From assembly GCF_000820505.1 (NCBI RefSeq), contig NZ_JWJD01000001.1, forward strand, positions 1 through 64,000: a stretch of DNA of 64,000 nucleotides, given 5' to 3'. This document shows, one piece after another, positions 56,976-62,403 of this stretch. A program made the position numbers and the translations under genes. The DNA comes from Geoalkalibacter ferrihydriticus DSM 17813 (lineage in GTDB: Bacteria > Desulfobacterota > Desulfuromonadia > Desulfuromonadales > Geoalkalibacteraceae). Every line of letters begins with the position of its first letter. Position 1 is the stretch's first letter. A model generated the notes under the pieces. The model was not told where the DNA came from, made no database searches, and saw nothing but the letters and a program-made list of their open reading frames with translations.

Positions 56976-57188
56976 TTAGTTGAGCTGCTGATGTCCTTGT
57001 GCAAAGCTTCTGACGACGCCGGCGAGGATCAGGGCTGCCGGGACCAGTTGCGCAACCACGATCAAGCCGAAGAAACCGATGAAGGCCCAGACCAGGATGC
57101 CGCTGTGTGTCTGTGCGCCGGCGGCGGCGAAAGCAGGAGAAGCAAAGCTGAGCAGCAGGGCGAGAGAGGTCAACAGAGTCGCTTTCAT
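56976..57188 (-). CDS. Small secreted/membrane protein
   Basis: ATG 57188 follows AAGGAGAA. The 70-residue product has a signal peptide (MKATLLTSLALLLSFASPAF, cleavage near AFA) and one hydrophobic helix (ILVWAFIGFFGLIVVAQLVP AALIL-type). No domain is recognised. Single-helix small proteins of this kind occur widely in this group of bacteria, often as parts of respiratory complexes, but nothing here shows the partner. Confidence 0.75.
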   Translation of the reverse strand: MKATLLTSLALLLSFASPAFAAAGAQTHSGILVWAFIGFFGLIVVAQLVPAALILAGVVRSFAQGHQQLN

Positions 57189-57564
57189 GATGGTTTCTCC
57201 TTTTTTGGGGTTTATTCCAGCCAGTGGCGAAGTCCACTTTGTGTTGTGCGTCATTTGTCTTTTTATACAGCATCAGACGTGCCAAGTCTGAAAAGTCCCT
57301 CGAGAAAGGTTGTAACTATTCTAAAATGTTGAGGAATAATTTTTTTCGAAGAGATTTTTTAGAAATGCTTGCTGCACGCAGGAAATAATTTTTTCATACA
57401 GATGAATCCTTGGCGAAAGGGCTCAAGAGTCCATAGAATTTCTTCAACATCCTTAAATTATTTGGGAAAAACGCTTTTCCCAAGGTGTATGAATTAACCA
57501 TGCGTTGAATGGAGAAAACATTCCTGCAACCTTTCGTTTCTTGTCTTTCCTGCGCCGCTCTCTC
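57189..57564. other. AT-rich intergenic region
   Basis: No gene is seen. It contains AT-rich stretches (for example around 57340-57400) that are likely promoter regions for the small membrane protein and for lexA. Confidence 0.4.
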
Positions 57565-57593
57565 TTGACATACGCAAAACTTACGCATATCGT
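57565..57593 (+). promoter_or_regulatory. lexA promoter with a direct-repeat operator in the spacer
   Basis: TTGACA (57565-57570) is a consensus -35. The 17-base spacer TACGCAAAACTTACGCA (57571-57587) consists of two TACGCA repeats separated by five bases. TATCGT (57588-57593) is a -10-like box. LexA dimers bind about such half-site spacing, so this is probably the autoregulatory site of the operon. It does not match the known Geobacter LexA box (GGTT-N2-C-N4-G-N3-ACC, recalled). Confidence 0.7.
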
Positions 57594-57619
57594 GGAGCCA
57601 CCGCAAGGAGGTGGTTGCC

Positions 57620-58228
57620 ATGAGTCCCCTGACGCCCAAACAAAAAGCTCTGCTCGATTTCATCGTCGCCTTTACCGAGCGCGAGGGATATCCGCCCTCG
57701 CAGCAGGAGATCGCCAAATCCTTCGGCTTTCGCTCCCTGGGCACGGTGCAGAATTATCTGGTGCGCCTGGAGCGCGAAGGCGTCCTGGCCAAGGACTGGA
57801 ACGCCAAGCGCGGCCTGCGGGTGCTGCAACCCCAGGCGCCGCCTCGGGCGCTGGAGTTGCCCCTGGCGGGGATCGTCGCCGCGGGCAAGCCCATTGAGGC
57901 GGTAAGCAACCCGGACACCATTGAGGTGCCGGCCTCCATGGTCGGCGCCGGCGAGAATTTCGTGCTGCGGGTGCAGGGCGACTCCATGGTCGGCGACGGC
58001 ATCCTCGACGGTGACTTCGTGGTCGTGCGCAAGCAACCCCACGCCGAATCGGGGCAGACCGTGGTCGCCCTGATTCGCGGCGAGGCCACCGTCAAGCGTT
58101 TGGTGCGTAAAGCCGATCACATCGAACTGCATCCGGCCAATCCGACCATGCAGCCCCTGGTGGTTTCCGGCGAGGAGGATTTTCGCATCGAGGGCGTGGT
58201 GGTCGGACTTATCCGCCATTGCCAGTAA
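57620..58228 (+). CDS. lexA: LexA repressor of the mutagenesis cassette
   Basis: ATG 57620 has AGGAGG at spacing 8. The 202-residue product has a winged HTH (residues 1-75: LTPKQKALLDFIVAFTEREG, SQQEIAKSFGFRSLGTVQNY) and an S24 self-cleavage domain. The scissile Ala-Gly is in IVAAGKPIEA, the catalytic Ser in GDSMVGDGI and the Lys in EATVKRLV. RecA filaments trigger cleavage and derepression. It is the first gene of a lexA-imuB-dnaE2 operon (imuB begins six bases after the stop), so this LexA, often a second copy called LexA2, controls translesion synthesis. Confidence 0.95.
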   Translation: MSPLTPKQKALLDFIVAFTEREGYPPSQQEIAKSFGFRSLGTVQNYLVRLEREGVLAKDWNAKRGLRVLQPQAPPRALELPLAGIVAAGKPIEAVSNPDTIEVPASMVGAGENFVLRVQGDSMVGDGILDGDFVVVRKQPHAESGQTVVALIRGEATVKRLVRKADHIELHPANPTMQPLVVSGEEDFRIEGVVVGLIRHCQ

Positions 58229-58234
58229 GCCGTC

Positions 58235-59401
58235 ATGGAGCGCGACATCCTGCACCTGGTCGTCCCGGCTTTTGCCATTTCCCTGGCGCGGGTCATCGAT
58301 GCGTCCCTGCGCGAGCGCCCCGTAGCCATCGCTGCCGCCCATTCAGGGCGGGCCCTGCTGCAATGCGTTTCGCGCGAGGCGGCGGCCGAGGGACTGCGCG
58401 AAGGCATGCCCGTGCATCACGCGCGTCGTCTCTGTCCCGCACTAAGTCTGCTGTCCCCCGATCCGCAACTGCTCGCGCGCGGCAGCCGGGCCCTGCATCG
58501 GCTGGTTTGCGACTACACGCCGCTCGTTGAACCGAATGCCGGCGGTCGGTTGTTTCTTGATCTCACCGGTTGCCGGCGCCTGCTCGGGCCGGGCCGCGAC
58601 GTGGCCGCACGCCTGGAAAAAGATCTGGAGCGGCGCCTGCGCCTGACCGGCACTGTCGGCGTGGCGGGCAACAAGCTGGTGGCGCGCATCGCCGCCGGGT
58701 GTCTGGAGCGCCCCGGAGTGTGCGACGTGCTGCGCGGCGCCGAGCGCAGTTTTATCGGGCCGCTGCCGGTGGCGGTTTTGCCGGGCATCGGCCCGGCGCG
58801 GCAGGCGGCGCTGCTGCAGGATCTCAATCTACGTGTCGTGCAGGAGCTTGCCGCTCTTTCTCTGGCGCAATTGCGCCTTGCCGTCGGGCCCTTTGCGCCG
58901 TTGCTGCACCAACGGGCCAACGGTATCGACCCCAGCCCGGTGTGCCTGCCGCAAAAAGCGCCCGAAGTGATCGAGGAAAGCTTTCTGGACCAGGAAGACA
59001 ACGACGATGCGGTGCTGCTCGCCGAACTCTGTCGCCTGGTGGAAGCCTGCGGCCAGCGCCTGCGTCGCATGGGACAGGCGGCCGGGCAGCTCACGCTGTA
59101 TCTCTCTTATGCCGATGGGGTAAACAGCAAACGCAGTGTGGTGCTGCCTGCGCCCCGGGATCATGACCTGGAGTTGTATGCCGCCGCCGAGCCGCTGTTT
59201 GTTGCGGCCTGCGAGAGACGGGTGCGGGTCAAGGGGCTGCGCCTGGAGTGCGCGCGGTTGGGTGCAGCGGCTGCGCAGCTCGATCTGTTTGCGCCGGCGG
59301 GTCTCGCCCCCCGTCACATTTCTTTGCAGCAGGCCATTGATCAGGTGCGCGACAAATACGGCATGGCGGCCGTGCGGCGCGGCCGCACCTTGTGCGCATG
59401 A
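58235..59401 (+). CDS. imuB: ImuB, catalytically dead Y-family polymerase homologue
   Basis: The 388-residue protein has the Y-family palm/fingers fold (HLVVPAFAISLARVIDASLR, QCVSREAAAEGLREGMPV, GTVGVAGNKLVARIAA, LPGIGPARQAALLQDLN). The first catalytic Asp is Val (LVVPAF where active enzymes have IDMDAF), and the later SIDE-type catalytic pair is absent (GGRLFLDLTGC). ImuB does not polymerise; it recruits DnaE2 and the sliding clamp. A beta-clamp-type motif could be in AQLDLFAP (near residue 350). It ends in a four-base overlap with dnaE2. Confidence 0.93.
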   Translation: MERDILHLVVPAFAISLARVIDASLRERPVAIAAAHSGRALLQCVSREAAAEGLREGMPVHHARRLCPALSLLSPDPQLLARGSRALHRLVCDYTPLVEPNAGGRLFLDLTGCRRLLGPGRDVAARLEKDLERRLRLTGTVGVAGNKLVARIAAGCLERPGVCDVLRGAERSFIGPLPVAVLPGIGPARQAALLQDLNLRVVQELAALSLAQLRLAVGPFAPLLHQRANGIDPSPVCLPQKAPEVIEESFLDQEDNDDAVLLAELCRLVEACGQRLRRMGQAAGQLTLYLSYADGVNSKRSVVLPAPRDHDLELYAAAEPLFVAACERRVRVKGLRLECARLGAAAAQLDLFAPAGLAPRHISLQQAIDQVRDKYGMAAVRRGRTLCA

Positions 59402-62400
59402 GCTACGCGGCTCTGCACGTCCACTCGGCCTTTTCTCCCCAGTGGGGAGTGCGCTCGGTGGAGGATATCTGCGCCGCGGCCCGCGCTCTGGGTCTCAGGC
59501 ACCTGGCCCTGACCGACCGCAATGGGCTCTACGGTGTGCCGCATTTTCTTGAGGTCGCCAAGGCACACGGCCTGCTCCCGCTCATCGGCGCCGAAACCGT
59601 CAAGGGCGGGCAGCGCGCGGTGTTGCTGGCCCGCGATGCTGAAGGCTATGCCAATCTCTGCCGCCTGTTGTCCGATCTGCATTGCCGCGCGGATTTCGAT
59701 CTGGCGCAAAGCCTCTGCGTCTTGCGGCGTGGGCTGACGGTGCTCAGCGACGATGCGGCGGTGCTCATGCCCCTGCGCCGGCAGAGCCGCGCGAATCTTT
59801 ATGTGGAACTCTCCCCCGGACATCAGATGCATCGCGCCCTGGCGTTGTCGCGTGAACTGGGTCTGCCGCCGGTGGCCACCAGTCGTGCGGTGCTGCTCGA
59901 GCCGCAGGATTATGAAATTCATCGGGTGTTGCGCGCCATTGCCCTCAACACCAAGCTCAGCCGTCTCTCGCCTGACGAACTGGCGGGGGAGGGCGACCGA
60001 TTGCTCTCGCCGCAACATTTGGCCGATTTTTTCCCTCATTGTCCGCAAGCCTTGGACAATACCCTGGTCGTCGCCGCGGACTGCCGCAGCGACTGGGACT
60101 TCTCCGCCTCGATCTTTCCCGCCTTTCGCGGCCTGGCGGATGGCGAGGCATTTGCCGCGCTGGAACTCAGGGCCCGTCAGGGCGCGCTGTGGCGCTACGG
60201 GCAAATGAATGTACGCATCGAAGAGCGGCTGTGCAAGGAGCTCAGCCTCATTCGCGACAAGGGTTTTGCCCATTACTTTCTGGTCGTCGAAGAGCTCGTT
60301 CGGCAGTCGCCGCGCACTTGTGGGCGGGGCAGTGCCGCCGCATCCCTGGTTGCTTATTGCCTTGGGATTACTCACGTTGATCCAATAGCTTACAATCTTT
60401 TCTTCGAGCGATTTCTTAACGAAGGGCGGCTTGACCCGCCGGATATCGATATCGATTTTCCCTGGGATGAGCGCGACGCCGTCCTTGATTTCGCTTTCCA
60501 GCGCTACGGCGCGCGGCGCGCGGCAATGGTGGCCAACCAGGTAAAATTCAAGGGGCGCTCCTCCCTGCGCGAGGTAGCCAAAGTCTTTGGCTTTCAGGAG
60601 GACGAGATCAAGACTCTGACCGCGCGTCTCTCCGGTTACTGCACGGCGGGCCGGACCGCCGCGGCCATCGCCCGCGATCCCCAGTTCAAAGGCGAAGCCC
60701 TGAGCGACGACTGGCAGCAGGTGCTGCGCCTGGCGCAGCGTCTCGATGGCCAATTGCGCCACCTCTCTCTGCACTGCGGCGGCCTGGTGGTGGTGCCCGA
60801 CGAAATCCGCCGCTATGTGCCGGTGGAGGTGGCGGCCAAGGGCCTGCCGCTGATTCAATGGGAAAAAGATCAGGCCGAAGCCGCCGGACTGGTCAAGATC
60901 GACATTCTCGGCAATCGCTCTCTGGCGGTAATCCGCGATGCCCTGGCGGCTGTCAAACGGCACACGGGCCGCGAAATTGATTACGCCACCTGGCAACCGC
61001 TGGACGATGAGCGTACCCGGCAGCTACTGCGCTCCGGCGGGACCATGGGCTGTTTCTACATCGAATCGCCCGCCACCCGGCAACTGCTCAAGCGCATGTT
61101 CGGCGAGCGGCAGGTGACAGAGGCGGCCGATCTTTTCGAGCACCTGGTCATGGCCTCGTCGATCATCCGCCCGGCGGCCAATGTCTTTATCCGCGAATTC
61201 GTCGCACGCATGCGCGGGAAGGCCTGGACCCCTCTGCATCCCTTGCTCGATGAGGTGTTGAACGAGACCTACGGCCTGGCCGTCTATCAGGAGCAGATCA
61301 CTCAGGTGGCCATGGCGCTGGCCGACTTTTCAGCCTTCGAGGGCGATCAGTTGCGCAAGATCATCAGCAAAAAGCACAAGGCGCAAACCCTCAGGGATTA
61401 CCACGAGAAATTTCTGGCCGGCGGACGCAAGAAGTGCATCGACGGCCAAATCCTGGGCAAGGTCTGGGCGCAGATTCTCTCCTTTTCCGGCTATTCCTTC
61501 TGCAAACCGCATTCGGCCTCTTACGCCCTGGTCAGCTGCAAATCCGCCTGGCTCAAGGCCAATTACCCGGCGGAATTCATGGCGGCGGTGATCTCCAATC
61601 AGGGCGGCTTCTACAGCCCCTTGGCTTATCTGTCCGAGGCGCGGCGCATGGGCCTTGAGGTTCTGCCGCCGGACATCAACGCCGGCGATCATCCCTACAT
61701 CGGGCAGGGCAGAGAGCTGCGGGTCGGGTTTATGCAGATTCAGGGGCTTTCGGGCGCCGCCGTCAAGGCGCTGCTCGCCGCGCGCACCCAGGGTGGGGAA
61801 TTCGTCAGTTTTCGCGACTTTCTCAGGCGGGTGCGCATGGACATCGCCGATACGCGGTTGCTGATCAAAGCGGGATGTTTTGATGCGCTGGAGGGTAAGG
61901 AGCGACGCCCGGCCCTGCTTTGGGAGTTGTTGGGGCACCGGCACGCAGCCCCCGCGTCAAGCGCCTCGCTGTTTGATGAGCCAGCGCTGGAACTGCCGAC
62001 GCCGCCGGCCTACGCTGACAAGCAGGTGCTGGCCCAGGAACTCGAAACCCTGGGCCTGCTCGCGTCCTGTCATCCCTTGGTGCTTCATCGAGGCGAGATT
62101 GCGCGACTCAAGCCGGTGTTCGCCTGTCGCATGGCTGAGTGGAGCAAGCGCTACATCACTATGATCGGCTGGTGGGTGACGGGAAAGACGGTGCAGGACA
62201 AAGACGGCCGGCCCATGGAATTCGTCTCTTTTGAGGATACGACGGGTATCTTCGACGCGACCTTTTTCCCTCAGGCCTATGCGCGGTTCTGCCGCAAGCT
62301 CTCGCGCCTGCGTCCCTATGTGCTCAAGGGCAAGGTCGAGGAGGAGTTCGGTGTGACGACCCTGACGGTGGAGTGGGTAGGCTTTCTGGAGAAAAAAGAG

Positions 62401-62403
62401 TAA
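59398..62403 (+). CDS. dnaE2: Error-prone DNA polymerase DnaE2
   Basis: The 1001-residue C-family polymerase starts at ATG 59398, overlapping the imuB stop. An N-terminal PHP domain (LHVHSAFSPQWG) is followed by the palm with PPDIDIDFPWDERDAVLDFA (catalytic Asp), fingers (GRGSAAASLVAYCLGITHVD), the thumb and a helix-hairpin segment (MQIQGLSGAAVKALLAARTQ), and an OB fold near the C-terminus (ITMIGWWVTGKTVQDKDGRP). It extends mutagenic bypass products on damaged DNA. Missing imuA is notable: the usual cassette is lexA2-imuA-imuB-dnaE2. Confidence 0.94.
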   Translation: MSYAALHVHSAFSPQWGVRSVEDICAAARALGLRHLALTDRNGLYGVPHFLEVAKAHGLLPLIGAETVKGGQRAVLLARDAEGYANLCRLLSDLHCRADFDLAQSLCVLRRGLTVLSDDAAVLMPLRRQSRANLYVELSPGHQMHRALALSRELGLPPVATSRAVLLEPQDYEIHRVLRAIALNTKLSRLSPDELAGEGDRLLSPQHLADFFPHCPQALDNTLVVAADCRSDWDFSASIFPAFRGLADGEAFAALELRARQGALWRYGQMNVRIEERLCKELSLIRDKGFAHYFLVVEELVRQSPRTCGRGSAAASLVAYCLGITHVDPIAYNLFFERFLNEGRLDPPDIDIDFPWDERDAVLDFAFQRYGARRAAMVANQVKFKGRSSLREVAKVFGFQEDEIKTLTARLSGYCTAGRTAAAIARDPQFKGEALSDDWQQVLRLAQRLDGQLRHLSLHCGGLVVVPDEIRRYVPVEVAAKGLPLIQWEKDQAEAAGLVKIDILGNRSLAVIRDALAAVKRHTGREIDYATWQPLDDERTRQLLRSGGTMGCFYIESPATRQLLKRMFGERQVTEAADLFEHLVMASSIIRPAANVFIREFVARMRGKAWTPLHPLLDEVLNETYGLAVYQEQITQVAMALADFSAFEGDQLRKIISKKHKAQTLRDYHEKFLAGGRKKCIDGQILGKVWAQILSFSGYSFCKPHSASYALVSCKSAWLKANYPAEFMAAVISNQGGFYSPLAYLSEARRMGLEVLPPDINAGDHPYIGQGRELRVGFMQIQGLSGAAVKALLAARTQGGEFVSFRDFLRRVRMDIADTRLLIKAGCFDALEGKERRPALLWELLGHRHAAPASSASLFDEPALELPTPPAYADKQVLAQELETLGLLASCHPLVLHRGEIARLKPVFACRMAEWSKRYITMIGWWVTGKTVQDKDGRPMEFVSFEDTTGIFDATFFPQAYARFCRKLSRLRPYVLKGKVEEEFGVTTLTVEWVGFLEKKE

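Follow-up and report, generated by a model that had tools for sequence, protein, structure and literature searches.

A direct-repeat element in the lexA promoter of Geoalkalibacter ferrihydriticus as the probable operator of a lexA-imuB-dnaE2 operon

LexA is the textbook palindrome-binding global repressor, and LexA regulons usually cover recA and repair genes. Direct-repeat LexA sites are known in other groups, as the initial annotation of this locus pointed out. The alphaproteobacterial operator, quoted in PMC8565304 and PMC3323433 as GTTC-N7-GTTC, is a direct repeat with an 11-bp period. The Balneolaeota operator, TTACACATATTTTWTACATA, is a direct repeat that was identified in the promoters of lexA genes and then verified by EMSA, and the regulon takes in recA and several polymerases (PMC7739468). 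The LexA1 and LexA2 proteins of Geobacter sulfurreducens use GGTT-N10-AACC. According to PMC6511836 and PMC8565304, which cite Jara 2003, lexA is autoregulated there and heads a Y-polymerase operon, and LexA1 and LexA2 do not bind recA. The imuA-imuB-dnaE2 cassette is LexA-regulated, at times as the only LexA-regulated unit (PMC3323433), and imuA-less variants of it have been described (PMC6511836). Neither a direct-repeat LexA site nor a LexA regulon of one operon is therefore new as a kind.

The window analyzed here is a stretch of 64,000 nucleotides from G. ferrihydriticus DSM 17813; all coordinates refer to it unless a contig is named. In front of lexA, the order is TTGACA (57565–57570), TACGCA (57571–57576), AAACT (57577–57581), TACGCA (57582–57587) and TATCGT (57588–57593), and the TACGCA-N5-TACGCA spacer reported in the initial annotation between TTGACA and TATCGT is present letter for letter. 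The pair of TACGCA words is part of a longer repeat, the 9-mer halves of which, ACATACGCA (57568–57576) and ACTTACGCA (57579–57587), have a period of 11 and extend into the −35 hexamer. The resulting form, ACTTACGCA-N2-ACTTACGCA, overlaps both the −35 and the −10. The same segment, 57565–57593, is the best σ70-like promoter of the upstream region, with 10 of 12 consensus matches and a 17-nt spacer, and the conserved lexA ATG lies 26 bp downstream of it. The features of the locus are as follows.

57565–57570, + strand: −35 hexamer TTGACA (sequence; promoter scan 10/12); its last three bases, ACA, open the left half-site.
57568–57576, + strand: left half-site of the predicted operator, ACATACGCA (consensus ACTTACGCA), from conservation across 49 sites.
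57579–57587, + strand: right half-site of the predicted operator, ACTTACGCA, in the orientation of the left half and 11 bp on (period 11 in 49/49 sites).
57588–57593, + strand: −10 hexamer TATCGT (sequence; promoter scan); the initial TA is invariant among aligned sites.
57606–57611, + strand: ribosome-binding site AGGAGG (sequence), with the ATG 8 nt further on.
57620–58228, + strand: lexA, 202 aa (TIGR00498, 1.1e-57; PF01726 and PF00717; alignment to E. coli LexA).
57728–57760, + strand: recognition-helix region FRSLGTVQNYL, codons 37–47 (alignment to E. coli LexA); the N45 codon, 57752–57754, covaries with half-site base 8.
58235–59401, + strand: imuB-like Y-family polymerase gene, 388 aa (PF00817, 2.2e-30; after lexA in 30/30 orthologous loci).
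59398–62403, + strand: dnaE2-like error-prone DNA polymerase gene (PF07733, PF17657 and PF02811; NF004225 below cut-off).

The LexA protein scores 194.9 bits against TIGR00498, above the curated cut-off of 110.95, and has both a winged-helix DNA-binding domain (PF01726) and an S24 peptidase domain (PF00717). Its VAAGKP, GDSM and TVKRL segments align with VAAGEP, GMSM and TVKRL of E. coli LexA; that is, the Ala-Gly cleavage site and the catalytic Ser and Lys are retained. Most orthologs start with MSP. Because this is the only LexA in the genome (E ≤ 0.001), the proposed name LexA2 does not fit. The imuB and dnaE2 genes overlap by ATGA, and no imuA lies between lexA and dnaE2. The imuB-like protein apparently lacks the polymerase acidic residues and so would be inactive as a polymerase, and its C-terminal QLDLF resembles a β-clamp motif. 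As the downstream polymerase falls below the cut-off of NF004225, the NCBIfam error-prone polymerase model, the DnaE2 label rests also on operon context.

As in G. sulfurreducens, lexA heads a Y-polymerase operon, recA is without the operator, and autoregulation is predicted. The G. sulfurreducens operator is palindromic, whereas no GGTT...AACC dyad is found here, and the operon there is lexA-imuB-C-polY rather than lexA-imuB-dnaE2. The imuA-imuB-dnaE2 cassette likewise has an imuB-like protein followed by dnaE2 under LexA control, a control predicted for this locus, but here lexA heads the operon and imuA is not adjacent. With the alphaproteobacterial operator, the element shares an 11-bp-period direct repeat that LexA binds there and is predicted to bind here; the half-site is ACTTACG(C/A) instead of GTTC. 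The Balneolaeota TTACACATATTTTWTACATA is also a direct repeat with a TTAC core, but its other bases differ, its period is wider (13 by our count), and its regulon has recA.

We propose, with a probability of roughly 0.87, that the LexA encoded immediately downstream has its operator at 57568–57589 and through it represses lexA-imuB-dnaE2 as a private, autoregulated switch. A LexA dimer would bind two half-sites of consensus ACTTACGCA, pointing one way and 11 bp, or about one helical turn, apart. The half-sites occupy the interval between −35 and −10 and overlap both hexamers, so that bound LexA would block RNA polymerase and repress the operon. Upon DNA damage, activated RecA would prompt LexA self-cleavage and induction of the operon, and newly made LexA would then shut it off again. 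Judged from sequence comparison, the repeated word is almost certainly a LexA landing site, and there is good support for its likeness to autoregulatory LexA operators. The element, its conservation, its direct-repeat geometry and its exclusive association with one LexA lineage were computed here, as were the retained LexA domains, the gene order and the absence of the operator from recA promoters. Binding, repression, RecA-dependent cleavage and damage induction are the predicted consequences.

A repeat in a single genome could be due to chance, since short repeats are common once all 6-mers and spacings are counted; conservation across orthologs rules this out. Searching 136 genomes of the order yielded 30 full-length LexA orthologs at 66–100% identity, with the next match down at 44%. 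The repeat is found in all 29 assessable orthologous promoters, the 30th (G101) having an assembly gap of Ns, and absence from orthologous promoters, which the initial annotation had named as grounds for refutation, is thus not what was found. In 28 of the 29, the form is TTGA(C/T)-repeat-TA, with TTGA(C/T) adjoining the operator; G102 keeps the operator without an adjacent TTGAC. Across the aligned sites, core positions average 1.74 bits of information per base, although part of this conservation (TTGAC, TA) is that of the promoter, which the operator overlaps; the flanks, at 0.21 and 0.17, are not conserved. The imuB gene follows lexA in 30 of 30 orthologous loci, and dnaE2 comes next in most of the loci that extend far enough. 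In G089 (L050), the operator lies 414 bp upstream of lexA, from which it is separated by an insert of about 350 bp with inverted-repeat sequence, possibly a small mobile element. G002, a 92% complete genome of the window's own genus, has no match to this LexA at all, which suggests that the cassette has been lost or is patchily present within the genus.

The geometry is that of a direct repeat. All 49 aligned sites have a period of 11, with 7–9 of 9 positions equal between the halves, and the best inverted match is 5–7 of 9, about the shuffled mean of 5.5. The two half-sites thus share one orientation and a fixed spacing, without dyad symmetry. Changes in one half are mirrored in the other: in G107 and G108, both halves read TACGCC. 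In a sister LexA clade (10 genomes from another order of the class, 45–58% identical), both halves of the operator read ACTTACGA, and residue 45 of the recognition helix has changed from N to H. The site there is TTGACTTRCGANNAACTTRCGA(G/C)TA, with unit base 8 altered in both halves, and ACTTRCGA occurs twice in 10 of 10 sister-order sites. Residue 45 aligns with Glu45 in the recognition helix of E. coli LexA, a residue that touches DNA. Asn at this position accompanies C/C at half-site base 8 in 36 sites, His accompanies A/A in 10, and Ser accompanies mixed halves in 2, with about two evolutionary changes underlying these counts. Such covariation is what a direct-repeat protein–DNA contact predicts, in which half-site base 8 would be recognized by residue 45.

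The element is also specific to lexA. TACGCA-N5-TACGCA occurs exactly once in the 64-kb window and once in the whole 3.84-Mb genome; at up to 2 mismatches genome-wide, the motif is not commoner than its reversed control (68+68 vs. 87+89). Across 277 genomes of the class, the strict motif TACGCANAANYTACGCA has 27 exact matches, one per genome, all 27 in promoters of lexA orthologs, and the reversed control has none. A lexA-blind pattern run over 395 genomes of the phylum gave 13 matches, every one some 50 bp upstream of a lexA homologue; outside the genus the encoded proteins are 50–67% identical, and some matches belong to families in which the next gene is not imuB. In another 21 genomes, just one exact site was found besides those of intact lexA genes, at a truncated lexA copy. 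This second copy of the lexA start, in G191, lies some 2 kb upstream of the intact gene with a perfect operator of its own (L255 1501–1519; G191:C1:1012622–1012640), and was rejected as a separate target for that reason. A 2-mismatch site in G101 (L108) was also rejected, since it precedes an unrelated gene. In viral contigs, there were 30 pattern matches, at or below the chance expectation by our own estimate and none with a LexA on the stretch examined, and no phage use is shown.

LexA genes of the class that are less closely related, at 36–45% identity, have Geobacter-kind palindromes in front where promoters were read, such as GGTTATCATTTGACAACC (L170) and GGTAGTCATATGACTACC (L155) before paralogous LexA genes. 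In the LexA tree, a branch with 100/100 support places all 28 palindrome-type proteins on one side and all 50 direct-repeat proteins on the other. E. coli LexA, a single long-branch row, joins beside the direct-repeat proteins, a placement that may be an artefact. G013 and G155 hold both LexA types, each with its own operator. The direct-repeat lineage and its operator occur in two orders of this class and, elsewhere in the phylum, in further families. Thus, the initial suggestion of a lineage-specific direct-repeat operator unlike the Geobacter palindrome is supported by comparison of every assessable orthologous promoter, in that the element is tied to one LexA lineage; that lineage is wider than expected.

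Another account of the element holds that a different regulator binds it, or that it is merely the conserved spacer of a strong promoter, while LexA acts elsewhere. The overlap with −35 and −10 is compatible with this. We regard it as improbable, however, as the exact motif is limited to genomes with this LexA lineage and always sits at lexA, where it stays even when the downstream genes differ (L197–L205). It also persists in G102 next to no TTGAC, its half-site changes follow the LexA recognition helix, and a plain spacer would need no such run of fixed bases. Alternatively, LexA could read a hidden Geobacter-like palindrome, the direct repeat being a coincidence; the palindromic sites of same-class relatives favor this, but the inverted matches stay at shuffled level with no fixed spacing, and GGTT-N10-AACC is absent from the conserved core of the aligned sites; this is very improbable. 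Chance is already refuted and has a negligible probability, the repeat being conserved in many families the flanks of which have diverged.

A further question for the LexA operator reading concerns the size of the regulon. The initial annotation suggested searching for copies at other SOS genes, and none were found in this or related genomes. In 27 genomes, no operator lies within 400 bp upstream of recA, where no sequence scores better than −1.0 bits; lexA sites score 24.6 or more. A relaxed 20-bp pattern allowing up to 3 mismatches found, in 32 genomes, a control-like background beyond the lexA site. In this genome, the one-mismatch matches (L002–L005) and the best looser ones (L259–L263) fall within coding sequence or have non-SOS neighbors, for example dnaA and a cold-shock-type gene, and were rejected as targets. 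With a single LexA and with recA and other loci lacking the operator, the detectable regulon is one operon, lexA-imuB-dnaE2, within the reach of 20-bp-frame scans to 3 mismatches, which weaker or single-half sites could escape. LexA would accordingly be an autoregulated switch reserved for a mutagenic polymerase cassette, and the DNA-damage switch of these genomes may control little beyond error-prone repair. A larger regulon, in which other SOS genes have weaker or differently spaced half-sites, would suit the usual inclusion of recA and repair genes in LexA regulons, and recA was read directly in the 27 genomes while other SOS genes were covered by pattern scan. The background-level counts, the low recA scores and the setting of the near-matches speak against it, and we consider it unlikely, though less so than the accounts weighed above.

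More broadly, we lean slightly towards the view that an ACTTACG(C/A) direct repeat of 11-bp period is read by a distinct LexA lineage which, within one phylum, is found in two or more orders and in several families besides. The regulon of this lineage would be a single autoregulated operon, the cargo of which varies by group, with imuB-dnaE2 in this genome and a small membrane protein in others. Residue 45 would set base 8 of each half-site, and in some genomes the lineage would coexist with a palindrome-reading LexA. Word searches, within the papers that they covered, turned up no report of the operator sequence, the phylum-wide lineage or the half-site covariation. In the present case, a widespread LexA lineage appears to recognize a direct repeat and to control essentially a single operon, that of an error-prone polymerase cassette, with recA outside. 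It would offer a natural system for studying a symmetric dimer on an asymmetric site, with matched, swappable changes in protein and DNA, and it lends support to the idea that the core task of SOS regulation is controlled mutagenesis.

In other families of the phylum (f46, f69, f109 and f118; L197–L205), the gene directly after this kind of LexA and operator is not imuB; it encodes a conserved hydrophobic protein of about 100–120 aa. This protein has a GFxxGxxW...WAG pattern and no Pfam match, and it may be a membrane protein or a division inhibitor induced in the SOS response. In the window itself, a small minus-strand ORF without a Pfam match (56976–57254) lies upstream of and divergent from lexA; it encodes 92 aa from the ATG at 57254 and has a signal-peptide-like start at an internal ATG.
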